36,856 nt of DNA from positions 8,039-44,894 of the IMG/VR virus record IMGVR_UViG_3300001450_008977; one strand, 5' to 3'. Under the pieces are notes generated by a model. The model was not told the origin of the DNA and searched no databases. It saw only the letters and a list, made by a program, of their open reading frames with translations. Below, piece after piece: positions 2,787 to 32,513 of this stretch. The number at the start of each line of letters is the position of its first letter. The stretch's first letter is position 1. The translations under genes were made by a program, and so were the position numbers. This DNA is from a virus.

Positions 2787-3578
2787 ATGGCAAAAAATGT
2801 TGTAATTAGTCTAAGCGGAGGGATGGACTCCTCAACCTTACTACTCAGATGTTTATCAGAGTATGACAATGTAACTGCAATATCTTTTGATTACGGTCAA
2901 AAGCATAGAGTAGAGCTTGAGAGAGCACAAGAACTAATAAGCTACTTAAAAGATAATGATAAGAACGTTAAATTTCAAGTAATTAAATTAGACGGATTAG
3001 TTAATCTTCTAAACTCAGCCTTAACAGAAGGTGGAGACGATGTACCGGAAGGTCATTACGAAGAGGATAATATGAAAGCTACTGTAGTACCTAATAGAAA
3101 CAAAATATTTGCTTCTTTGGTCCAGGCAGTTGCACTTTCAGAGGCAATGTCTAATGGAAATAATACAGATATCGCATTAGGAATCCATGCTGGAGACCAT
3201 GCAGTATATCCTGATTGCAGACAAGAGTTTAGAGATGCTGACGATAACGCCTTTAGACTAGGTAATTGGGAAGCAGATAAAGTAGATTATTTTACACCTT
3301 ATTTAGAAACTGACAAGTATGGAATTTTACAAGATGGTCAAAAGCTCTGTAGAGAACTTGGCCTTGATTTTAATAGCGTTTATAGTAGGACTAACACTTC
3401 TTATAAGCCTTACCCTAGCGGTAATAGTGATTACAAGTCCGCTTCATCTGTGGAACGAATCGAAGCGTTCATTAAATTGGGTGCGGATGATCCTGTACAG
3501 TACGAAGACGAAAGTGGACCAGTTAATTATGAAGTTGCGAAAACTCATGTTGAAAAGCTTTTAGCTGAATACGCGTAA
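2787..3578 (+). CDS. queC: 7-cyano-7-deazaguanine (preQ0) synthase QueC, lacking zinc cysteines
   Basis: QueC uses ATP and ammonia to turn 7-carboxy-7-deazaguanine into the amide and then the nitrile preQ0. The PP-loop ATP site 'SLSGGMDSS' is at residues 8-16, followed by 'FDYGQKH', and the conserved 'VPNRN' (101-105) and 'GIHAGDHAVYPDCR' regions are present. Length (263 aa) is normal. The C-terminal zinc knuckle, usually four cysteines (C-Y then C-x2-C-x2-C before the conserved R), is replaced by S205, D215, S218 and S221; the surrounding frame (TNTSYKP ... VERIEAF) is intact, so this is substitution, not truncation. It sits with queD, queE, queF, folE and dpdA elsewhere in the window. Confidence 0.9.
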   Translation: MAKNVVISLSGGMDSSTLLLRCLSEYDNVTAISFDYGQKHRVELERAQELISYLKDNDKNVKFQVIKLDGLVNLLNSALTEGGDDVPEGHYEEDNMKATVVPNRNKIFASLVQAVALSEAMSNGNNTDIALGIHAGDHAVYPDCRQEFRDADDNAFRLGNWEADKVDYFTPYLETDKYGILQDGQKLCRELGLDFNSVYSRTNTSYKPYPSGNSDYKSASSVERIEAFIKLGADDPVQYEDESGPVNYEVAKTHVEKLLAEYA

Positions 3579-3586
3579 TACGGAAT

Positions 3587-3659
3587 GCCTCTGAAGCTTA
3601 ATAGGAAAAGCATCTCACTTGTAAAGAGAAGTCTGTAGGTTCGACTCCTACTAGAGGCT
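3587..3659 (+). tRNA. tRNA-Thr (anticodon TGT)
   Basis: Cloverleaf by eye: acceptor GCCTCTG / TAGAGGC (one G-T pair); D stem GCTT/AAGC with GG in the loop; anticodon stem TCTCA/AGAGA with loop CTTGTAA (anticodon TGT at 34-36); T arm GTAGG/CCTAC with loop TTCGACT. Variable loop 5 nt, discriminator T, no encoded CCA. Departures from consensus: A instead of T at position 8 and an A-A mismatch at the base of the anticodon loop (31-39). It lies between queC and a membrane-protein gene. The anticodon would read ACA, the A-ending Thr codon. Confidence 0.85.
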
Positions 3660-3678
3660 CTAATTTTAAAAACAAAAG

Positions 3679-4595: not shown

Positions 4596-4932
4596 AAAGA
4601 AAACATACTTTGTAGATATAGACGGTACTATTTTTAAGTACAGAGAATTTGATACATATCTCGATAATCCGGCAGTTGTAATAAAGTCTACAAAACAATT
4701 TTTACAACAAGCAAGAGATGAAGGTCATATGATTATTCTTACAACAGCACGACCGGATACTAAATTTATGAGAGCACAGACTCAATTCGAGCTCATTCAA
4801 GGTAATATACCTTACGATAGATTAATTATGGGAATAGAAAGAGGTCCAAGATACTTAATTAATGATTTATCTCCAAAAGAACCGGGTGATAGAGCAATTT
4901 GTTATAATTTAATAAGAGATGAAGGTATATGA
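4588..4932 (+). CDS. HAD-superfamily phosphatase, small
   Basis: Motif I D10-I-D12-G-T, motif II 'TTARP' (52-56) and a motif IV-like acidic site 'INDLSP' (D93) define a HAD phosphatase of about 114 aa without a large cap domain, similar in layout to the phosphatase half of phage polynucleotide kinase or KdsC-like enzymes. The substrate is not evident; a phosphorylated small molecule handled by the adjacent kinase and nucleotidylyltransferase is likely. The start overlaps the kinase gene by 8 nt and its stop overlaps the next start (ATGA). Confidence 0.82.
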   Translation: MVKKKTYFVDIDGTIFKYREFDTYLDNPAVVIKSTKQFLQQARDEGHMIILTTARPDTKFMRAQTQFELIQGNIPYDRLIMGIERGPRYLINDLSPKEPGDRAICYNLIRDEGI

Positions 4933-5282
4933 AAAAGTATTCAATGTTTATTGGAAGATGGCAACCATGGCATGCCGGTCACCGTTGGTTAATCGATCAA
5001 AGATTAAATCAAGGTAAAAACGTATGGATAGCAATTCGTGATGTAGAACCAAGTGATAACCAACCTTGGACAGCACATGAAGTAATGATGAATATTCAAA
5101 AGGAACTACACGGTCTAATTGTAGAAGGAAGGATATTTATTAGTATAATACCGGACATAGAATCTGTTAACTATGGAAGAGGAGTAGGCTATGACGTTAT
5201 AGAGCATGTACCGCCTACTGAAATTGACGAAGTTTCTGCTACAAAAATTAGAGCAAAAATGAGAAAAGACGGTAAGTTATAA
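4929..5282 (+). CDS. Nucleotidylyltransferase, NMN adenylyltransferase-like
   Basis: N-terminal 'GRWQPWHAGH' (9-18) is the H-x-G-H nucleotide-binding motif with the G-R-x-Q-P form seen in archaeal-type NMN adenylyltransferases, and 'SATKIR' (103-108) is the matching C-terminal motif. At 117 aa it is a minimal single-domain enzyme. It would transfer AMP or CMP to a phosphate-bearing substrate; NAD salvage is one possibility, activation of a modified nucleotide or sugar another. Tightly coupled to the HAD gene (ATGA) and 9 nt before the carbamoyltransferase. Confidence 0.8.
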   Translation: MKKYSMFIGRWQPWHAGHRWLIDQRLNQGKNVWIAIRDVEPSDNQPWTAHEVMMNIQKELHGLIVEGRIFISIIPDIESVNYGRGVGYDVIEHVPPTEIDEVSATKIRAKMRKDGKL

Positions 5283-5291
5283 ACGTTAACT

Positions 5292-6983
5292 ATGCTACAA
5301 TTAGGAATCTCCGCTTTTTATCATGATGCAGCAGCTTGCTTAGTAAAAGACGGTAAAGTAATTAGTGCAATAGAGGAGGAAAGATTTACTGAAATTAAAC
5401 ATGACAGTTCATTTCCTGTTTGCTCCATACAATGGTTATTAAAAAAAGCTAACATCCAGAATATAAACGATATAGACGAAGTATGCTGGTATGAAAATCC
5501 TAAGACTAAGAAGGATAGGGTTGTTAAAACTTTTGCTAAAAAACCTTTTAGAACCTTATTTAATAAACTAAAATTCCTTACTAAGTACTACCTATTATCA
5601 CCAAAAATTCTACTATACTGTTATTTTAACTATACCGGTAAGATTAAATACATAGACCATCACTTATCTCACGGTGCTTTTTCATATTTTACTAGCCCTT
5701 ATAAACATGCAGCTATATTAACTGTTGACGGTGTTGGAGAATGGGAAACTATTACTATATCTAAGGCAGTTAACGGTAAGATTACAAAAAAACTATCGAT
5801 TGATTTTCCTAATTCACTAGGAATGTTATATTCCGCTATTACAGCTTTTTTAGGATTTAAACCAAACGAGGGAGAGTATAAAATTATGGGATTAGCTCCG
5901 TTTGGGAACCCTGATAGGTACTTTGATAAGTTAAATTCTATTTTTAATAATACTGATAGTAAATTTGAAATTGATCAAACCTTTTTCACGTGGGAATATT
6001 CAGATAAGATAATGTTTAATTTAGAACTATGTCAGTTACTAGAACTTGCCCCGAAATTTCCTGAGGAGCCTATGTTACAGGACCATAAAGACTTAGCGGC
6101 AGCATTACAGAAAGTTTATGAATTCCAATTTAGTAAGTTACTTAAAACTGCAAAAAAATTAACTAAAAGTGATAATATCTGCTTAGGAGGAGGATGTGCG
6201 TATAACGGTGTAGCTAATATAAAAGCATACGAATACTTTAAATCAGTACATATACCTTTCGCTCCTTCTGATGCTGGTTCTGCTATAGGTGCTTGTTTAC
6301 ATAGCTATATTAACAATAGTTCAGTAGTCAGCTGGAAAGGTAAACGTAGAAACAATAATAATCCCTATTTAGGTGATTCTTATAAAGATAGCGAAATTAT
6401 ACCGGTATTAAGTTATTTTAGTAACTTCATTAATTTTAAAAGACATCATAATGATGAGCTATTAGTTCACTTAGCTAATGCTATTAATGAAGAGAAAATT
6501 ATTGCATTATTTAGAGAGAGAATGGAATTTGGAGCTAGAGCATTAGGTAATAGGTCAATTATAGCTTCTCCAAAGTATGCCAATATGAGGAAAAGGTTAA
6601 ATAAGATTATTAAAAAAAGAGAAGGTTTTAGACCTTTTGCACCTTCTGTTACCTTAGACAATGCTAAGAAATATTTTGATATTAAAGAACCAGTCCCTTA
6701 TATGAATATAGTAGCTAAAAATAAGAGTAACTTATTTAATGCTGCTACTCATATAGACGGTTCATCGAGAGTACAAACAGTTACAAATCAATCTAATCCG
6801 AACTATTACAAGCTACTTAAAGAAGTAGGTAAAGTAACCGGACATGAAGTTTTACTTAATACTTCATTTAACCTTAAAGATCAGACTATTACTAGAACAC
6901 CGTTACAGGCTATAGAAAGATTTATAAGCTCTGAAATAGATATTCTAGTAATAAATAACTATTTAATAAAACGAAAAAAATGA
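5292..6983 (+). CDS. Carbamoyltransferase, NodU/TobZ family
   Basis: A full-length (563 aa) O-carbamoyltransferase. The N-terminal ASKHA-like domain has 'FYHDAAACLV' at the start, 'EEERFT', the metal/nucleotide motif 'DHHLSHGAF' and 'TVDGVGEW'; the middle has 'EGEYKIMGLAPFG' and 'LGGGCAYNG'; the C-terminal YrdC-like part has 'EFGARALGNRSI', 'GFRPFAPSV' and 'LLNTSFN'. Family members use carbamoyl phosphate and ATP to carbamoylate hydroxyls on sugars or antibiotics. In this cassette the acceptor may be a nucleotide, DNA base or surface sugar; the sequence does not say which. Confidence 0.92.
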   Translation: MLQLGISAFYHDAAACLVKDGKVISAIEEERFTEIKHDSSFPVCSIQWLLKKANIQNINDIDEVCWYENPKTKKDRVVKTFAKKPFRTLFNKLKFLTKYYLLSPKILLYCYFNYTGKIKYIDHHLSHGAFSYFTSPYKHAAILTVDGVGEWETITISKAVNGKITKKLSIDFPNSLGMLYSAITAFLGFKPNEGEYKIMGLAPFGNPDRYFDKLNSIFNNTDSKFEIDQTFFTWEYSDKIMFNLELCQLLELAPKFPEEPMLQDHKDLAAALQKVYEFQFSKLLKTAKKLTKSDNICLGGGCAYNGVANIKAYEYFKSVHIPFAPSDAGSAIGACLHSYINNSSVVSWKGKRRNNNNPYLGDSYKDSEIIPVLSYFSNFINFKRHHNDELLVHLANAINEEKIIALFRERMEFGARALGNRSIIASPKYANMRKRLNKIIKKREGFRPFAPSVTLDNAKKYFDIKEPVPYMNIVAKNKSNLFNAATHIDGSSRVQTVTNQSNPNYYKLLKEVGKVTGHEVLLNTSFNLKDQTITRTPLQAIERFISSEIDILVINNYLIKRKK

Positions 6984-7093: not shown

Positions 7094-7125
7094 TTTGGAT
7101 ATAATAAATATTTATCGTATCTTAC
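7094..7125 (+). promoter_or_regulatory. Bacteroidota-type promoter, queD/queE operon
   Basis: TTTG at 7094-7097, a 20-nt spacer ending TTATCG, and TATCTTAC at 7118-7125. The predicted start of transcription is near 7129, leaving a leader of ~47 nt that contains a riboswitch-like fold. Confidence 0.78.
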
Positions 7126-7142
7126 TTAAACATAACAGACAA

Positions 7143-7172
7143 TAGTGTCACAGCACCACTTTAAAAACACGG
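7143..7172 (+). promoter_or_regulatory. Putative preQ1 class I riboswitch, queD/queE operon
   Basis: Helix 1 AGTG (7144-7147) with CACT (7157-7160); loop TCA-CAG-CA-C in which C7156 sits directly before the 3' strand, the position of the ligand-pairing cytidine; then an A-rich tail TTAAAAA and CACGG ending 4 nt before the ATG. C7151 with G7171 and G7153 with C7168 would form helix 2. The loop and tail resemble the Thermoanaerobacter tengcongensis aptamer. Helix 1 is only 4 bp and helix 2 is weak, so this is less certain than the folE copy. Ligand binding would hide the region just before the start codon. Confidence 0.6.
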
Positions 7173-7175
7173 AAA

Positions 7176-7493
7176 ATGGCTATATTTAGAAAAGGCGAAC
7201 AGATACACATCACCGATAAAGATGTAACTGCCGAATTACAAGACCTTGAAGGTCGACAATCAAAGAATATCACATATCAAACTCAGCTTAATGATCTGAA
7301 GTTAGAATTGGTAGAAATTAAAAACTCAACTAGCACAGATTTACCTGATGCTTTTTTACATCAGAGAATTAGCTTTATTAAATCAGCAATTAGACTAGCA
7401 GCTTGTGCTTTTGGTTTCTTTGGTATGATTGAAATAGGGTTTATTGGATTATTTTTAGCAGAATTAGTAGGAATTGGAGAAGAACTAGTATAA
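7176..7493 (+). CDS. Hypothetical protein with C-terminal membrane segment (105 aa)
   Basis: Residues ~15-70 are charged and helical, with heptad-like spacing ('ELQDLEGRQ', 'LNDLKLELVEIKN'); residues ~72-101 are hydrophobic ('RLAACAFGFFGMIEIGFIG') and could be one or two membrane helices. It is the first gene behind the putative preQ1 riboswitch and its stop overlaps queD (TAATG), so it may belong to the deazaguanine pathway, for instance in uptake or anchoring, but I see no known transporter motif. Confidence 0.65.
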   Translation: MAIFRKGEQIHITDKDVTAELQDLEGRQSKNITYQTQLNDLKLELVEIKNSTSTDLPDAFLHQRISFIKSAIRLAACAFGFFGMIEIGFIGLFLAELVGIGEELV

Positions 7494-8005
7494 TGGTATA
7501 TCATAGTAAATTATCAAAAAAAGCAATCCAAAAACCTAAATTTTTGTCTACTAAGGTTTTTGATGGATTTTCTACAGTATTTAGACAGTGGAAAGCAGAT
7601 GGTACTCATTGTAGATTTTTACATGGGTACGGTATATCTTTTAAATTATGGTTTGAAGGAGATTTAGACGAAAGAAACTGGGTATGGGATTTTGGCGGAA
7701 TGAAAAGAGCAAAGACTAAAATAGGAGGTAAGTCTCCTAAAGATTGGTTTGATTATATGTTCGATCATACCTTTATAGTAGCTAATGATGATCCTTTTAA
7801 AGATTCTTTTTTAAAAATGGGAGAAGTAGGAGTAGCTCAAGTTAGAGTTATAGATGCTGTAGGAGCAGAAAGATTCGCAGAGTTTGTTTATAATAAGGTA
7901 AATAAATTTGTGCTTAAGGAAACAAAAGGAAGAGTTAAAATTGCAAAAGTAGAATTTAGAGAACACGGAAAAAACGCAGCCATATATGTCCCTGGGTCGA
8001 ATTGA
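7493..8005 (+). CDS. queD: QueD-like 6-carboxy-tetrahydropterin synthase
   Basis: QueD converts dihydroneopterin triphosphate (from FolE) to 6-carboxy-tetrahydropterin. Visible family features: 'C40-R-F-L-H44-G-Y-G' corresponding to the catalytic Cys and 'LHGH' motif, 'WVWDFGGMK' corresponding to 'DFG-x-LK', and 'FDH' (90-92) for 'LDH'. Two of the three usual zinc histidines are changed: the N-terminal A-H is V-F, and the last His of HGH is Tyr; H39 next to C40 and H44 remain. At 170 aa it is longer than typical QueD (~120). Coupled to its neighbours by TAATG upstream and a 20-nt overlap with queE. Confidence 0.82.
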   Translation: MVYHSKLSKKAIQKPKFLSTKVFDGFSTVFRQWKADGTHCRFLHGYGISFKLWFEGDLDERNWVWDFGGMKRAKTKIGGKSPKDWFDYMFDHTFIVANDDPFKDSFLKMGEVGVAQVRVIDAVGAERFAEFVYNKVNKFVLKETKGRVKIAKVEFREHGKNAAIYVPGSN

Positions 8006-8777
8006 AGATTATAATAAAAATCTACCGATAGTAGAGATTTATACAGCAGTACAGTCAGAAGGTTCCAGAGCAGGGTACCCTACAGTTGTAATTAGAACTA
8101 CTGGCTGTACTCATAGATGTTTTTTTGGAGAAGGAGGGTGGTGTGATAGTTGGTATACAAGTATTCATCCGGAAAAAGGCAAATGGTCTTTTAACGACAT
8201 AGTAAAAATGTATGACGATAATCCTCAAATATCAGAAATGATGTTAACTGGAGGTTCACCGACTATGCATCCTAAATTAGTTAACGAATTAACTCACTTT
8301 GCTAAAGAAAGAGACATATTTATAACTATCGAGACAGAAGGTTCTCATTACTTAGAAACTGATTACCCTATTAATCTACTAAGTATTAGCCCTAAGTTCA
8401 GTAATTCAGTTCCTCAAGATGGAGCTACTTTACCTAATGGACAGAAATTAGAGGGCAGGAGAGCAGAGATGATGATTAAAACGCATAATAGGTTTAGATT
8501 AAACTATGAGGCTATTAAGAAAAGTATTAAATATCATTCAGATTACCACCTCAAACCTGTTTGGGACGGTAAAGACAACAATTCATTAAAGGAAATTATG
8601 GAATGTATATCCCTTCTTGATGCTCCTAAAGATAAAGTCTGGTTTATGCCAGCAGGGGACTCAAGAGCGGCATTATATAAATCATACCCAATACTATTCG
8701 ACTGGGTTAGGGATAACGGGTATAGAATGACCTGGAGACCGCACATTATAGCATTTGAAGATCAAAGAGAAGTATAA
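7986..8777 (+). CDS. queE: QueE-like 7-carboxy-7-deazaguanine synthase (radical SAM)
   Basis: Radical SAM enzyme rearranging 6-carboxy-tetrahydropterin to 7-carboxy-7-deazaguanine. The N-terminus 'PIVEIYTAVQSEGSRAG' is typical of QueE. The cluster cysteines are C41, C45 and C53, in the order C-x3-C-x7-C with D54 following, rather than the plain C-x3-C-x2-C, so there is a 5-residue insertion in the cluster loop. 'LTGGSP' replaces the usual 'GGEP' SAM-binding motif, and 'ETEGS' and 'SPKFS' follow as in the family. A ferredoxin gene lies two genes downstream. The start overlaps queD by 20 nt. Confidence 0.9.
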   Translation: MSLGRIEDYNKNLPIVEIYTAVQSEGSRAGYPTVVIRTTGCTHRCFFGEGGWCDSWYTSIHPEKGKWSFNDIVKMYDDNPQISEMMLTGGSPTMHPKLVNELTHFAKERDIFITIETEGSHYLETDYPINLLSISPKFSNSVPQDGATLPNGQKLEGRRAEMMIKTHNRFRLNYEAIKKSIKYHSDYHLKPVWDGKDNNSLKEIMECISLLDAPKDKVWFMPAGDSRAALYKSYPILFDWVRDNGYRMTWRPHIIAFEDQREV

Positions 8778-8792
8778 TATAAACAATTAAGT

Positions 8793-9002
8793 ATGAAAGA
8801 ACACGTCTACCAATTTTTAAAAAAACAAGCAGAAGCTGATAAAGCAAAAGCATTAGCAAGTTTCACTATCTTAACATCTCACCCTGCTGGAATAGGAGAT
8901 CATTCCACAAAAGACTATTGGGATAACTGTGAAGAAGCATTAAAATTATTATCATCAGCACACGAAAGATTAGAAATATTAGAGAAGTATATTAAAGTCT
9001 AA
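8793..9002 (+). CDS. Hypothetical protein (69 aa)
   Basis: Small soluble, mostly helical protein with a conserved-looking centre 'HPAGIGDHSTKDYW' and helix 'EEALKLLSSAHERLEIL'. It starts 15 nt after queE and its stop overlaps the ferredoxin start (TAATG). I recognise no domain of known function. Its position between two iron-sulfur proteins does not by itself indicate a role. Confidence 0.65.
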   Translation: MKEHVYQFLKKQAEADKAKALASFTILTSHPAGIGDHSTKDYWDNCEEALKLLSSAHERLEILEKYIKV

Positions 9003-9265
9003 TGAGCCATATCATTGGCAGTAAATGCATTGACACAAAGGATGGTGCATGTATACTGGTTTGTCCAATAGAGGATTGTATTCTCGAAGCGGAAGAATCA
9101 ATGTACATTAATCCTGATACGTGCATTGACTGCGGAGCTTGCATCTATGAATGCCCGGTAGAAGCAATCTATGACTCAGAAGAAGAAGCTATTGAACAAG
9201 AGGGCACTAACAAATATGTAAAGAAAAATTACGAATTTTTCGGATTAAATTATGAAAACACTTAG
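9002..9265 (+). CDS. 7Fe ferredoxin (FdxA-like)
   Basis: 87 aa, with the cysteine layout of a 3Fe-4S/4Fe-4S ferredoxin: C9, C17 and C51 for the 3Fe-4S cluster and C21, C41, C44 and C47 for the 4Fe-4S cluster; position 12, a Cys in many two-cluster ferredoxins, is Thr. 'CPIEDC' and 'CIDCGACIYECP' are the key motifs and the tail is acidic. It is a cytoplasmic electron carrier. Being in the same operon as queE, it probably reduces that radical SAM cluster, though it could also serve host enzymes. Third-position C and G are more frequent here than in flanking genes, hinting at separate acquisition. Confidence 0.92.
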   Translation: MSHIIGSKCIDTKDGACILVCPIEDCILEAEESMYINPDTCIDCGACIYECPVEAIYDSEEEAIEQEGTNKYVKKNYEFFGLNYENT

Positions 9266-10534: not shown

Positions 10535-10552
10535 AATATTATTCTTATATTA
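10522..10552 (+). promoter_or_regulatory. Bacteroidota-type promoter, folE-dpdA operon
   Basis: TTTG at 10522-10525 (inside the end of the phosphoribosyltransferase gene), a 20-nt spacer ending TATTCT, and TATATTA at 10546-10552. The predicted transcript starts near 10557, four nt before the riboswitch fold, so the aptamer sits at the extreme 5' end. Confidence 0.82.
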
Positions 10553-10560
10553 TATTAATA

Positions 10561-10594
10561 ATGAGTCGTAGAACCTCATAAAAAAACAAACTAA
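10561..10594 (+). promoter_or_regulatory. preQ1 class I riboswitch, folE leader
   Basis: Every element of the preQ1-I aptamer is visible. Helix 1: ATGAG (10561-10565) with CTCAT (10575-10579), 5 bp. Loop 1: TCG. Helix 2 5' strand: TAG (10569-10571). Loop 2: AA, then the ligand-pairing C at 10574 just before helix 1 closes. Loop 3: eleven nt, A-rich (10580-10590). Helix 2 3' strand: CTA (10591-10593), pairing with TAG. This matches the Bacillus subtilis queC aptamer element by element. The ATG of folE follows at 10595, so ligand binding should block translation initiation, giving feedback control of the first step of preQ1 synthesis. Confidence 0.85.
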
Positions 10595-11308
10595 ATGGCA
10601 AAAAAATTTATAGAAGGTACTGAGTTAGTAGAGCCTGGGTATGCAAATGGTATATCTACTCAACTATATAATAAACAGAGAATAGAAGGTGAAGAAGCAA
10701 GACTAACTGAATTTGAAAAAGAAGACATTATTAATAAAGCAGCTCATAAATTTGGATTATTTTTAGATGAATTAGGCTGTGAATGGAGAAGAGATCCAAA
10801 TTCATCTGATACTCCTAGGAGAGTAGCAAAAGCTTACGTTAATGATTTATGGAAAGGAAGATATGAACCTTTAGATAAGATCACAGCTTTTCCTTCTGAT
10901 GGATATGATGGAATAGTACAAGAAAGTAACATACCAGTTCATTCAATGTGTTCCCATCATCATCAAACTATAGGAGGTAATGTAAGCATAGCATATATTG
11001 CTTCAGCTGAGGGTAAAGTAGTTGGGTTATCAAAGCTTAATAGAATCGTAGAGCAATTCGGTAGAAGAGGTGCTATACAAGAACAACTTACTGTAGCAAT
11101 ACATAATGCAGTAAACAAGATATGTGAAGGTAATTTAGGCGTCGCTGTGATGATTTCAGCTACTCATAACTGTGTTAGTTGTAGAGGAGTCAAACATCAA
11201 GGAGCTTCAATGCAAACAGCTAAATTAACAGGAGCATTCTTAGATGAAGACTCAGCTAAAGCAGAGTTTTATAAAAATATCGAATTAGCTTCAATATGTA
11301 AACATTAA
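10595..11308 (+). CDS. folE: GTP cyclohydrolase I
   Basis: Converts GTP to dihydroneopterin triphosphate, the first step to 7-deazaguanines. The zinc site is present: C119 and H122 in 'HSMCSHHHQ' and C193 in 'HNCVSCRGV'. Core motifs 'VVGLSKLNRIVEQF' and 'QEQLTVAIHNAV' follow the family. Length 237 aa is normal (~190-230). The usual 'CEHH' is 'CSHH', a Glu-to-Ser change. Controlled by its own promoter and by a preQ1-I riboswitch fused to its start codon. It heads the operon that ends with dpdA and the formyltransferase. Confidence 0.95.
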   Translation: MAKKFIEGTELVEPGYANGISTQLYNKQRIEGEEARLTEFEKEDIINKAAHKFGLFLDELGCEWRRDPNSSDTPRRVAKAYVNDLWKGRYEPLDKITAFPSDGYDGIVQESNIPVHSMCSHHHQTIGGNVSIAYIASAEGKVVGLSKLNRIVEQFGRRGAIQEQLTVAIHNAVNKICEGNLGVAVMISATHNCVSCRGVKHQGASMQTAKLTGAFLDEDSAKAEFYKNIELASICKH

Positions 11309-13037: not shown

Positions 13038-13207
13038 TTAATATAAACGATCACGTAGTGGAAATAGAAGGTAAACAATATGTACCTTTCGATATAGCTG
13101 TAAAAGCAATAAATAATGTACTTGAATCAACTAAAACTATAGATGATTTACATGTTAAATTAGCAGAATCTTTAAAAAACTTAAGCGACCTAAAATTAGA
13201 TGATTAA
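13034..13207 (+). CDS. Small hypothetical protein (57 aa)
   Basis: ATGA overlap with the MazG-like gene and 8-nt overlap with dpdA, so it fits exactly in the gap. It starts with short beta-like strands ('HVVEIEGKQYVPFDIAVKA'), then a helix with regular Leu/Ile spacing. Acidic and soluble. No family recognised; tight coupling to dpdA makes translation likely. Confidence 0.6.
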   Translation: MININDHVVEIEGKQYVPFDIAVKAINNVLESTKTIDDLHVKLAESLKNLSDLKLDD

Positions 13208-14018
13208 AATAGCACACGAAGCACCTTTAGATATCTTTGATGAAGTCCAGAGGTTTACAGATTATGATTATGCATTAGTTCACCTATTAGAAGAAAATCC
13301 TAGATATAGAGATACTTTTGAAAGAGCTATAAAAAAAGGAAGAGAAGTTATATTAGATAATTCTATATTTGAGTTAGAAGAAGCATTTGAAGCGGAAAGA
13401 TTTGCTCAATGGGTTAACCGTCTAAAAGCCTCATGGTATATAATCCCAGATGCTTTAGAGAATATGGCTCTTACTATAGGTCAATGTCAAGATTTTAAAA
13501 GAGACTATCCAAGGTTACATGGAAAGAGTATCGGAGTAGTCCAAGGAAAAGACTATGAAGAGATAAAAAGATGTTATCAATTTATGGATATGGAAGAAGT
13601 TGATATGATTGCTATATCTTTTGACTATTCTTATTATAGCGTTTCTGTCCCGCATCCTAACAAATATGTAAGTTGGATGTTAGGAAGAGTTAAATTATTA
13701 GGAGATCTATTAAAAGACGGTGTGATAAACACTAATAAACCTCATCACTTACTAGGATGTGGGTTACCTCAAGAGTTTGCATTCTATAAGCATGCAGATT
13801 ACAAATGGATTTATTCCCTAGATACTTCTAATCCAATAGTACACGGAATAAAAGGTATTACGTACGGGGATGAAGGTTTATGGAGTAAAGAATCTCAAAA
13901 GTTACATGAGCTAATTAATATGGACTTAGAAGAGATTGACATAGATAAAGTTAAAAATAATATTCAAAAATTTAGATGGTATGCAAACGGAAGGCATAAG
14001 GTGGATAGCGTTCTTTAG
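13200..14018 (+). CDS. dpdA: DpdA-family DNA-guanine transglycosylase
   Basis: Phage DpdA enzymes are TGT-fold proteins that swap guanine in DNA for a 7-deazaguanine base. Visible here: 'ILDNSIFE' (51-58), 'IIPDALEN' with D84, 'GVVQGK' (112-117), 'AISFDYSYY' and 'YSLDTSNP' with D208, which corresponds to the nucleophilic Asp of TGT; 'HLLGCGLP' is the phosphate-binding region. At 272 aa it is shorter than bacterial TGT (~375 aa) and lacks the C-terminal four-ligand zinc site, as expected of phage DpdA. With queC, D, E, F and folE in the same window, a DNA rather than tRNA target is strongly favoured. It overlaps the formyltransferase by 38 nt. Confidence 0.88.
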   Translation: MIKIAHEAPLDIFDEVQRFTDYDYALVHLLEENPRYRDTFERAIKKGREVILDNSIFELEEAFEAERFAQWVNRLKASWYIIPDALENMALTIGQCQDFKRDYPRLHGKSIGVVQGKDYEEIKRCYQFMDMEEVDMIAISFDYSYYSVSVPHPNKYVSWMLGRVKLLGDLLKDGVINTNKPHHLLGCGLPQEFAFYKHADYKWIYSLDTSNPIVHGIKGITYGDEGLWSKESQKLHELINMDLEEIDIDKVKNNIQKFRWYANGRHKVDSVL

Positions 14019-14532
14019 TCAAACTGGAGCGGAAATAGCGGATATAGCTGAAAGTATAGGGAGATGGCCTGATAGAATTATAACTAATGAGAGGCCAACA
14101 CACTTAAGAACTATAGATCCTAGAATAGAAAAAAGAAGTTACTGGACATTTAAAAACTACCCAGATAAGGAAAACTATTTAGATGTTTTACAATATTTTC
14201 CTGATGCTTTAGTTACTCTTCATGGTTGGTTAAGAATTATACCAGGCTTTGTTACAGAAGGAGTTAAGTTGTATAATGGTCATCCTGGTTTAATTACTAA
14301 GTACCCTGACCTTAAAGGTAAAGACCCTCAAATAAAAGCTTATGAACGTGAATATGAAGAGATCGGATCAGTTATACATAAAGTAACAGCAGGAGTAGAT
14401 GAAGGTAAAGTAATTGCTGAAGCTAGTATACCTAATGATGATTTTACTCTTGATGAAGTTTATGATAAATTAAAAGGAGTAAGCTTAGGTTTATGGGTTA
14501 ATTTTCTTAATGATTATTTGAGTCTTCGATAA
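13981..14532 (+). CDS. dpdN: Formyltransferase-fold protein, candidate dPreQ1 formyltransferase
   Basis: 183 aa with the N10-formyl-THF transferase fold of PurN/Fmt: Rossmann start 'IRWIAFFSQTGAEI' (6-19), 'VTLHGWLRIIPGFV' and the catalytic triad N99, H101 ('YNGHPGLI') and D140 ('GVDEGKVI'). It starts inside dpdA and is the last gene of that operon. Phages carrying 7-(formylamino)methyl-7-deazaguanine have such an enzyme (DpdN), acting on the amine of preQ1; a queF is also present to make that amine. Alternatives are a nucleotide-sugar N-formyltransferase or PurN itself. The start at 13981 is needed to keep the first strand. Symbol is tentative. Confidence 0.75.
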   Translation: MQTEGIRWIAFFSQTGAEIADIAESIGRWPDRIITNERPTHLRTIDPRIEKRSYWTFKNYPDKENYLDVLQYFPDALVTLHGWLRIIPGFVTEGVKLYNGHPGLITKYPDLKGKDPQIKAYEREYEEIGSVIHKVTAGVDEGKVIAEASIPNDDFTLDEVYDKLKGVSLGLWVNFLNDYLSLR

Positions 14533-15084: not shown

Positions 15085-16023
15085 ATGGAAGAAAAAGGGT
15101 TAAATGCAGACGTTAAAAATTATCAAGAAGTAGTAGATATTGCTTCTAAACATTTAGGAAAAGTAGGCGGTGATGGGTATAAAGATACATACTCACCAGA
15201 ATTATTAGTTAAAGTACCAAGATACTTAAACAGAGAAGGTTACGGACTAACTTCAGACAGTTTTGTAGGAGTAGATACTTGGAACTGTTATGAAGTATCA
15301 GCTATCACTACTAAAGGTCAACCGGTAGCAGGTATGCTTAAAATAGTTTGTCCTTCAAATAGTGAATATCACGTTGAATCTAAGTCAATAAAACTTTATT
15401 TAAATTCATTTAATATGACTCGTATAGCAGATAATGCTAGAGACTGTATTAGCGGTATTGAAGCAAGAGTAAAGAGAGATTTAGATGAGTTACTTGAAAC
15501 TAATACAACTGTTTCTTTTTATGCTAGTGAAGAAGAAGGAAAACCTTTATCTTTTATGAACTATAAAGACTTAGGAGATATAGTAGATCTAGATGAGATA
15601 GACTTTACAGCATTTCAATCCGATGCCTCTCAGTTAAAATCATATAAAGCTAAAAAAGAGAATTTAGCATGGCCTGAATTAAGGTTAAAATCTAACCTTT
15701 TAAGATCTAACTGTAGAGTTACGAATCAACCAGATTGGGGTGATGTATACATTAAGATAAAAGGTGAAAATTTACCTACAGCAGATTCATTGGCAAAGTA
15801 TATAGTTTCACATAGAACCGTAAGTCACTTCCACGAAGAAATTTGTGAAATGGTTTACAAGCATTTAACTGATGCTTTTCAACCAGAGCAGCTTATGGTA
15901 GCATGTTTATATACTAGAAGAGGAGGTTTAGATATTAACCCTGTTAGAGCATCTCATAATATGCTTATCCCAGCTATGTTTGAAGAAAAGGAATTTAGAT
16001 TAGCAAAAACATTAAGGCAATGA
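15085..16023 (+). CDS. queF: NADPH-dependent preQ0 reductase QueF (bimodular type)
   Basis: Reduces the nitrile of preQ0 to the aminomethyl group of preQ1. The 312-aa length matches the two-domain (E. coli YqcD-like) type. Catalytic C210 and D217 lie in 'RSNCRVTNQPDWGDV', E251/E252 in 'HFHEEICE', and the NADPH motif 'ESKSIKLYLNSFN' is at 98-110. All key residues are present, so the enzyme should be active. This fixes the pathway product as preQ1 rather than preQ0. Its stop overlaps the next start (ATGA). Confidence 0.93.
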   Translation: MEEKGLNADVKNYQEVVDIASKHLGKVGGDGYKDTYSPELLVKVPRYLNREGYGLTSDSFVGVDTWNCYEVSAITTKGQPVAGMLKIVCPSNSEYHVESKSIKLYLNSFNMTRIADNARDCISGIEARVKRDLDELLETNTTVSFYASEEEGKPLSFMNYKDLGDIVDLDEIDFTAFQSDASQLKSYKAKKENLAWPELRLKSNLLRSNCRVTNQPDWGDVYIKIKGENLPTADSLAKYIVSHRTVSHFHEEICEMVYKHLTDAFQPEQLMVACLYTRRGGLDINPVRASHNMLIPAMFEEKEFRLAKTLRQ

Positions 16024-32111: not shown

Positions 32112-32513
32112 ATGAAAAATTTAATAGTTGCATTATTATTATTATTTTCACTGAGCAATTTCAGCCAGCAAATCTTAACTGATGATAATTTTGAAGAAGC
32201 TATAAATGGTCGATCAGCTTTTCAAGATGATGACATTTCAATAGTAGTTGTAGAGTTTTGGGCCTCATTTAATGATTCTAATTCATTTAGTGATTGGGGT
32301 AAATTAAAAGGTATTAAATACTATAAAGTAGATATTTCTAAATCACCTAAAGCTAAAAAAGACCATAAAGTTAGAACAATTCCACATATTATTATATTTT
32401 TTGACGGGTACGATGAAAAACATTTTAAAGCAGGTTTAGATTTTGCTATAAAGGATTCATGGGAAGACATTCAAGAAGTTATAGATGAACTATTAAACGA
32501 AAGTAAATTTTAA
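32112..32513 (+). CDS. Secreted thioredoxin-fold protein without active-site cysteines
   Basis: 133 aa from ATG 32112; the longer in-frame ORF from 32076 would put extra residues before a clean signal peptide and overlap the upstream gene. The signal peptide runs to the S-Q-Q near residue 20 ('NLIVALLLLFSLSNFSQ'). The mature part keeps thioredoxin landmarks, 'VVVEFWASFN' where F-W-A-x-W-C-G-P-C is expected, and the cis-Pro strand 'VRTIPHIIIFFDG' (P91), but both active-site cysteines are gone. It should be a periplasmic binding or scaffold protein, not a redox enzyme. Confidence 0.78.
   Translation: MKNLIVALLLLFSLSNFSQQILTDDNFEEAINGRSAFQDDDISIVVVEFWASFNDSNSFSDWGKLKGIKYYKVDISKSPKAKKDHKVRTIPHIIIFFDGYDEKHFKAGLDFAIKDSWEDIQEVIDELLNESKF

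Follow-up and report, generated by a model that had tools for sequence, protein, structure and literature searches.

A short preQ1-I-like RNA element before folE and queD-queE of a phage with 7-deazaguanine genes

Known preQ1-I aptamers and 7-deazaguanine phages

The described system closest to the RNA of this study is the type II preQ1-I aptamer of Thermoanaerobacter tengcongensis (Tte), in which C9 pairs with G33 and G11 with C30, C7 and A14 contact G11, and G8 faces A31 (PMC10622847, in its available parts). Tte binds preQ0 17-fold more weakly than preQ1, and type III aptamers have a pyrimidine-rich loop and a buried Shine-Dalgarno sequence (PMC11625349, in its available parts). On the phage side, the 7-deazaguanine phages 9g, Dp-1 and HVTV-1 share FolE-QueD-QueE-QueC with the locus described here, some such phages have QueF or QueF-like proteins and some DpdA, and the DNA of Dp-1 and HVTV-1 carries dPreQ1; the available main text of that study contains the word 'riboswitch' 0 times (PMC6884629). 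The que operon of Dp-1 gave no Rfam preQ1 match (E up to 1). The glutamine riboswitch of the methylophage Melnitz and of pelagiphages is also phage-encoded, but differs in ligand, fold and genes (PMC9004378, available parts). No phage preQ1 riboswitch was found in the literature that could be reached, which left out most subscription papers.

The DNA analysed here (the window) is a 36.9-kb part of a virus record 44.9 kb long. The first-pass annotation had placed a class I preQ1 riboswitch on the leader of the phage folE gene and only there. The folE element stands, and a preQ1-I-like RNA does sit on the phage's own 7-deazaguanine genes. However, it is a divergent, shorter variant, and a second copy at 7144-7171, before orf105-queD-queE, had been missed.

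Two elements and the genes beside them

The whole core of element 1 lies at 10561-10590 on the + strand in front of folE (GTP cyclohydrolase I, 10595-11308, + strand, PF01227, E 4.5e-42), and the stretch TAATAATGAGTCGTAGAACCTCATAAAAAAACAAACTAA-ATG stands between a phosphoribosyltransferase-like gene and folE. Helix P1 is formed by ATGAG (10561-10565, +) and CTCAT (10575-10579, +), with the closing base G10565 equivalent to Tte G5. It encloses the loop TCGTAGAAC (10566-10574, +), which was assigned to Tte U6 C7 G8 N9 A10 G11 A13 A14 C15, with U12 absent, on the basis of the composition of 94 distinct 9-nt loops and of 50 from loci found without the motif scan; the Tte roles of these residues were taken from the available parts of PMC10622847 and PMC11625349. 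The 5-bp helix, the loop and the folE ATG after the leader had been read correctly, as had the ligand-type C before the helix closes. The loop begins with U and ends with C and the closing G-C pair is in place, so the ligand-contact nucleotides of preQ1-I aptamers and the U...AC loop on a G-C-closed P1 of type II are all present in the window. The tail continues with the A-rich L3 (A7, 10580-10586, +), which is also the A-tract at -15 to -9 of the folE start codon. CAAACTAA follows, and then the ATG at 10595. The 3' strand of P2 was placed at 10587-10590 (+), where C10587 corresponds to Tte C30, A10588 to A31 and A10590 to position 33. A promoter-like TATATT box occurs twice on the + strand at 10546-10556 (10546-10551 and 10551-10556). 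The model R1 scored element 1, which is among its 77 training sequences, at 40.7 bits (E 7.9e-07, 10559-10593).

Element 2 (7144-7171, +), identified by sequence and by R1, has P1 at 7144-7147/7157-7160 (+), the loop TCACAGCAC at 7148-7156 (+) and a + strand tail with L3 at 7161-7167, C30 at 7168 and G33 at 7171, which would pair with C9 at 7151. R1 gave it 46.9 bits at 7141-7175, element 2 also being a training sequence, and a TATCTT box lies 5' of it at 7118-7123 (+). The predicted energy minimum of element 2 is a different hairpin. In most elements with GTG/CAC stems (64/73 such elements; 7144-7160 and relatives) the last three loop bases are CAC as well, and therefore GTG can pair with the loop, as it does in that predicted minimum. 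With the helix slipped in this way, the C that reads the ligand would be concealed, and this fold could represent the RNA without ligand.

The first gene 3' of element 2 is orf105, a 105-aa ORF (7176-7493, +) with no PHROG match at E 0.001, followed by queD (7493-8005, +; PF01242, phrog_2389) and queE, a radical SAM gene (7986-8777, +; phrog_2076). The window also holds queC (2787-3578, +; PF06508) and queF, for the preQ0 to preQ1 nitrile reductase (15085-16023, +; PF14819/PF14489); the R1 search of the window found no element before either of these two. Among solved chains the QueF protein is closest to 3bp1 (E 7.5e-45), an NADPH-dependent 7-cyano-7-deazaguanine reductase; the SNC...TNQPDWG and FHE stretches are part of the alignment, and the NCBIfam QueF model gave 238.6 bits, under its cut-off of 293.45. 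A DpdA-like base transglycosylase (13200-14018, +) has no Pfam or NCBIfam match and is 69% identical to the protein annotated as DpdA in Flavobacterium phage immuto. In a Foldseek search its predicted structure (pLDDT 90.5) matched DpdA 7ui4 best (E 1.4e-07, TMq 0.61), and the predicted model aligns with tRNA-guanine transglycosylases at Z 17.5 (rmsd 3.1-3.3 over 234-237 residues). Because the phage record encodes QueC, QueD, QueE, FolE and QueF as well as this DpdA-like protein, the phage is probably able to make preQ1 and to place it or a derivative into DNA.

Several other genes of the window deserve mention. A formyltransferase-like ORF (13981-14532, PF00551) lies between the DpdA-like gene and queF, occupies the same place in the immuto annotation and is matched in many relatives of the window; its product might formylate the preQ1 amine and so yield an unusual DNA base. 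A small 4Fe-4S ferredoxin (9002-9265) is encoded shortly 3' of queE and is a possible electron donor for the radical SAM protein QueE. A NodU/TobZ-type carbamoyltransferase with both Pfam domains (5292-6983) lies in the same region and could act in base or glycan modification. A tRNA gene lies at 3587-3660 (+); the match to plastid ycf2 on the opposite strand, under the cut-off of the ycf2 family, is the antisense of this tRNA.

Comparison of the element among relatives and with known types

Folding energy is uninformative for element 1 (MFE -2.8 kcal/mol, z -0.61, 47 of 200 shuffles as good), and it is because of comparative data from relatives that the hairpin at 10561-10594 is judged, from sequence, to be real and conserved. 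Among 79 folE leaders read from the best 80 of 597 loci (one locus begins inside the gene), the loop motif, searched without demanding a stem, occurs within 90 nt of folE in 47 and is absent from 32, and 46 of these 47 leaders have at least four Watson-Crick P1 pairs. A scan of viral contigs (at least 120 stretches) for loop and tail, with the closing pair, the loop ends and the A-run fixed by the search expression and the remaining stem free, gave 140 matches among those listed. FolE, orf105, QueD or QueE starts within 900 nt downstream of 98 of the listed matches, and in this context the stem has at least 4 bp in 97 and 3 in one. Eight listed matches lie too close to the locus end, six of them with a stem, and the 34 elsewhere have stems of at least 4 bp in two cases, 3 in one and 2 or fewer in 31. 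Stems of at least 4 bp thus number 105 among the 140 listed: 97 before pathway genes, 6 at a locus end and 2 elsewhere, and these last two (L099, L124) resemble a locus (L122) whose QueD is 1.1 kb downstream. This placement is in keeping with the genes of queuosine/preQ1 synthesis or uptake that preQ1-I RNAs control. A permuted-loop control on at least 120 stretches gave 120 matches among those listed, of which 7 had a stem, 6 of them near a locus end, and none stood before pathway genes. Variant loops behaved similarly. TCACAG matched 33 times: every one of the 15 matches before pathway genes has a stem, and so do 2 of the others, while 16 have none; TTCG gave 22 matches, 3 before folE, all with stems, and 19 others without.

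The compensating changes expected in relatives were found for helix 1. Over the 77 sequences of alignment A1, P1 pairs are AU in 50, GC in 14 and UA in 13 at one position, and UA in 61 and AU in 16 at another. This alignment holds 76 of 82 unique elements plus that of immuto, six rows being left out as unlike in the loop, and its rows were picked for a 4-bp stem, so 100% P1 pairing there is by construction; the invariance of G5, U6, A10, G11, C15 and C30 is likewise fixed by the search expressions. Many element rows are related, and the p-values given here ignore phylogeny. A chance hairpin in A-rich Bacteroidota-type leaders would fit the fold energy, which is no better than that of shuffles, the A-rich tracts before many other ORFs of the window and the weak R1 matches in the window, some of which are A-tracts before other ORFs. 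It is refuted by the comparative data (stems in pathway context, the permuted control, the folE leaders), and we regard it as extremely improbable.

A set of 95 distinct elements was used for further comparison: 37 stand before folE, for 50 the distance to QueD is no more than 1.6 kb, and 8 were left unassigned. At one locus (L139, 11215-11260) with a different gene order, an element lies directly 5' of queE, with folE about 1 kb further. A TAT[AC]TT box lies within 32 nt 5' of P1 in 87/95 elements (mononucleotide shuffles: mean 16, maximum 26), which fits a transcription start near the hairpin. This box, as at 10546-10556 and 7118-7123, differs from the flavobacterial promoter box TAnnTTTG (PMC9723704, available parts) and possibly marks a phage promoter class. 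The window also leaves open a frame for a leader peptide of six residues inside element 1 (ATG AGT CGT AGA ACC TCA TAA), but only 16 of the 95 elements have an ATG overlapping the 5' strand of P1, and there is none in stems like GGAG or AGTG. A leader peptide was rejected for this reason and is given hardly any credence.

The Rfam preQ1 model RF00522, a search with which had been proposed beforehand, has a gathering cut-off of 39 bits, and element 1 did not reach it (14.0 bits, E 1.1 in a 141-base search). The whole window gave nothing at E<=5. On the whole record element 1 was the best match, yet a coding stretch scored 13.2 bits, and element 2 was not listed. The cut-off was reached in none of 26 element-bearing records hand-picked from loci, where the best score was 21.8 bits (folE element of G335); the folE element was the record's best match in G335, G329 and G331 (21.8, 17.9 and 9.8 bits). 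To call the leader element-for-element a class I aptamer was thus too strong, its loop also being one nt shorter than that of Tte. With 14 bits against a cut-off of 39, the element is likely a shorter variant that would work like preQ1-I type II, and not a member of RF00522.

The dimensions of the family differ from those of type II. The loop has 9 nt in 94/95 elements, P1 has 4 bp in 88/95 (5 bp in element 1), and 78/95 measure 28 nt when counted from the fourth base of P1 through base 33. The same count gives 32 on the Tte sequence. Tte has a ten-nt loop including position 12 and a five-bp P1, and its numbering agrees with the cited residues. The family as a whole thus lacks the ten-nt loop, position 12 and the five-bp P1. 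Shared with Tte are the G5-C16 floor, U6, C7, G8, A10, G11 with C30, A14, C15 after an A, A31, a possible N9-N33 pair and an A-rich L3 that runs on into the region where translation starts. Unlike Tte, the family has a 9-nt loop without U12, a P1 usually of 4 bp, an L3 usually of 7 nt (7 nt in 66/77, 6 in 7, 8 in 3 and 5 in 1), a core of 28 nt and no Shine-Dalgarno G at position 33, and it was seen here in viral sequences only. An H-type pseudoknot and a preQ1-reading C before the P1 3' strand are features in common with types I and III (Can, Eco), whereas type I has UC before P1 and the family AC in 92/94 nine-nt loops.

The pseudoknot had been named as TAG pairing with CTA at 10591-10593 across an 11-nt linker. 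This form of P2 was discarded: a contiguous complement of loop positions 9-11 is found in the tail of only 10/95 distinct elements. Comparison suggests other partners, C10587 with G10571 and A10590 with U10569, with a linker of 7 nt. Loop position 9 pairs with the base at C30+3 (Tte 33) in 58/77 elements (shuffled mean 48.7, p 0.0005, relatedness uncorrected) and is unpaired with it in 19/77, and in these 77 elements offsets +2, +4 and +5 show no excess while +1 is invariant. In the set of 95, which was enriched in C9 by a C9 scan with base 33 left free, N9-N33 pairs in 71 (shuffled 59.4): C9 faces G33 in 13/13, G9 faces C33 in 3/4 and U33 in 1, U9 faces A or G in 53/73 and A9 faces U in 1/5. 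A tree of 49 QueD proteins shows 9 changes at position 9, with C9 recurring in separate parts, and a tree of 37 FolE proteins shows 5. In 51 elements from loci that were found by FolE alone (FolE-only loci) the pair was found in 35 (shuffled 31.9, p 0.12, not significant). G11 and C30 occur in every element used, both set by the search expressions, and so show no variation. P2 would be limited to two canonical pairs at most, and the sequence evidence for its pairing, including the C9-G33 pair of type II, is moderate (p 0.0005 in 77; p 0.12 in 51).

These data bear on another explanation, in which a protein of the phage or of its host would bind the hairpin and repress folE and queDE translation, with no small ligand involved. 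In its favour, a translational operator could well take the form of two similar short hairpins beside two start codons, P1 by itself makes a weak hairpin, and P2 covariation is only moderate. However, an operator would not predict constraints in the tail, where A31 is present in 51/51 of the elements from FolE-only loci and position 9 shows excess pairing with C30+3. The loop also matches the ceiling and pocket residues of preQ1-I (C7 in 48/50, G8 in 46/50 and A14 in 48/50 loops of the FolE-only loci), and the element follows QueF. A protein operator is therefore considered unlikely, and a preQ1-I-like aptamer is preferred.

Among isolated phages one group, immuto (host Flavobacterium sp. LMO8), has the folE element (32317-32351 of MW353176), and element-bearing viruses seem to infect Flavobacterium-like bacteria. 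At E 0.01, R1 found none in 295 genomes from the class of a Flavobacterium genome (G001, behind locus L226), with 23 candidates scored per genome and stricter filters, and none in 39 genomes of the family of G001 with 150 candidates scored each; the positive control, 39/52 viral records, consisted of small records with all candidates scored and does not imply equal sensitivity. The exact loop-and-tail pattern occurred in 2 of the 295 class genomes, where the listed matches enter AAAACA without room for L3, and a backward-read control of the pattern matched once among the matches listed. RF00522 gave none over its cut-off in the 295 genomes, 33 of which had weak matches. A pattern scan of at least 119 genome-contig stretches gave 6 matches with a 4-bp stem, and none of these had any of 19 searched window-protein relatives downstream on the same strand.

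Proposed ligand, proposed mechanism and meaning

QueF converts preQ0 to preQ1. A QueF relative was found in 60 phage records, and the association of the element with QueF was evaluated in 52 records hand-picked from loci, mostly long or varied, with named phages added. The element was found in 39 of the 52, and QueF in 38 of these 39 versus 5 of the 13 without the element (Fisher p 1.4e-5). The sole element-bearing record without QueF, the contig of locus L022, ends 738 nt 3' of folE. When FolE proteins were clustered at 90% identity, window included, QueF accompanied 13/13 clusters with the element versus 4/11 without. The five element-free records with QueF and the 32/79 folE leaders without the motif mean that the switch is dispensable. 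Cellulophaga phages phi13:1 and phiST and Chryseobacterium phage MA9V-3 have folE, no element and no QueF match, and at the Rfam gathering threshold no preQ1 match was found in five stretches (Dp-1, phi13:1, immuto, phiST, MA9V-3). That preQ1 is the phage's own modification precursor, as first proposed, agrees with these genes, since the phage encodes QueF and preQ1 can be made. Since QueF makes preQ1 and the element accompanies QueF, sensing of preQ1 is considered more likely than sensing of preQ0.

The same aptamer could instead bind another 7-deazaguanine, preQ0 or a further modified phage base or nucleotide, with the readout of a guanine-like base by G5 and C15 kept. The preference of Tte for preQ1 over preQ0 is only 17-fold (PMC11625349, available parts), the loop is one nt shorter, so the pocket near the aminomethyl group may differ, and the formyltransferase-like ORF lies next to the DpdA-like gene and queF. 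Such a reading could also draw on a 44.8-kb contig (L070) that has a related hairpin and no QueF match. However, the presence of QueF in 38/39 records with the element, and the absence of the element from 8/9 records without a QueF match, is the pattern of a preQ1 sensor and not of a preQ0 sensor, and another 7-deazaguanine ligand is held to be improbable, if a little less so than the protein operator. The L070 hairpin itself, GGTG UCGUAGUUC CACC before folE (4930-5000), has a longer tail and no R1 match and is perhaps a related sensor for another ligand.

The position of the tail would suit an action on translation. Bacteroidota lack Shine-Dalgarno sequences, and initiation in Flavobacterium johnsoniae is tuned by As at -14 to -11, -6 and -3 and by mRNA structure (PMC6847099, available parts). 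In 72/95 elements the first base of the L3 A-run lies at -11 to -14 and in 76/95 its last base lies at -7 to -10, with A at -10 in 97%; A stands at -12 to -10 in 77-97% of the 95 elements versus 55-63% of 51 other window ORFs. By analogy, L3 is presumed to be the ribosome landing tract of these mRNAs without Shine-Dalgarno sequences. The start codon sits 5-14 nt past C30 in the 95 elements, which leaves no space for a terminator before it and makes translational control the natural reading.

The proposed explanation builds on a conserved loop, a stem with compensating changes, association with the pathway, co-occurrence with QueF and the position of the A-tract; from these, and by analogy with described aptamers, we infer the ligand, its binding mode, the off-switch and the translational action. 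In this view the folE and orf105-queD-queE mRNAs would each carry a miniature riboswitch of the preQ1-I type close to the 5' end, and the phage would make preQ1, probably to modify its own DNA. As long as preQ1 is missing, the A-rich strand that follows the weak hairpin would stay single-stranded and act as the landing tract. Once QueF has made enough preQ1, the base would dock between P1 and P2. There C15 would read its Watson-Crick face, its edge would be read by U6 and an adenine of L3, and the pairs G11-C30 and N9-N33 would close over it. L3 would then lie in the P1 groove and the landing tract would be locked, so that less folE and queDE would be translated. Feedback of preQ1 on translation of folE and queDE is thus most likely, and we put the probability of this explanation as a whole at roughly three in four.

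The odds are slightly in favour of a broader statement: that this is a fourth preQ1-I type, smaller than the known types and carried by phages whose hosts are Flavobacterium-like. In that case the phages would own a riboswitch for DNA hypermodification that acts on mRNAs without Shine-Dalgarno sequences by burying an A-rich landing tract, with two copies that throttle FolE, QueD and QueE when preQ1 is plentiful. The 28-nt core would probably be among the smallest natural aptamers, and its shortness may explain why the Rfam model misses it. In the available main text of a 2024 review of the family the word phage does not occur; the review regards riboswitches on mRNAs that have no Shine-Dalgarno sequence as a challenge and predicts their discovery (PMC11625349). 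The element is a concrete candidate for such a riboswitch, and isolated phages that carry it are available (immuto). If the explanation is true, phages regulate by riboswitch, in the course of infection, a modification pathway of their own that consumes GTP.
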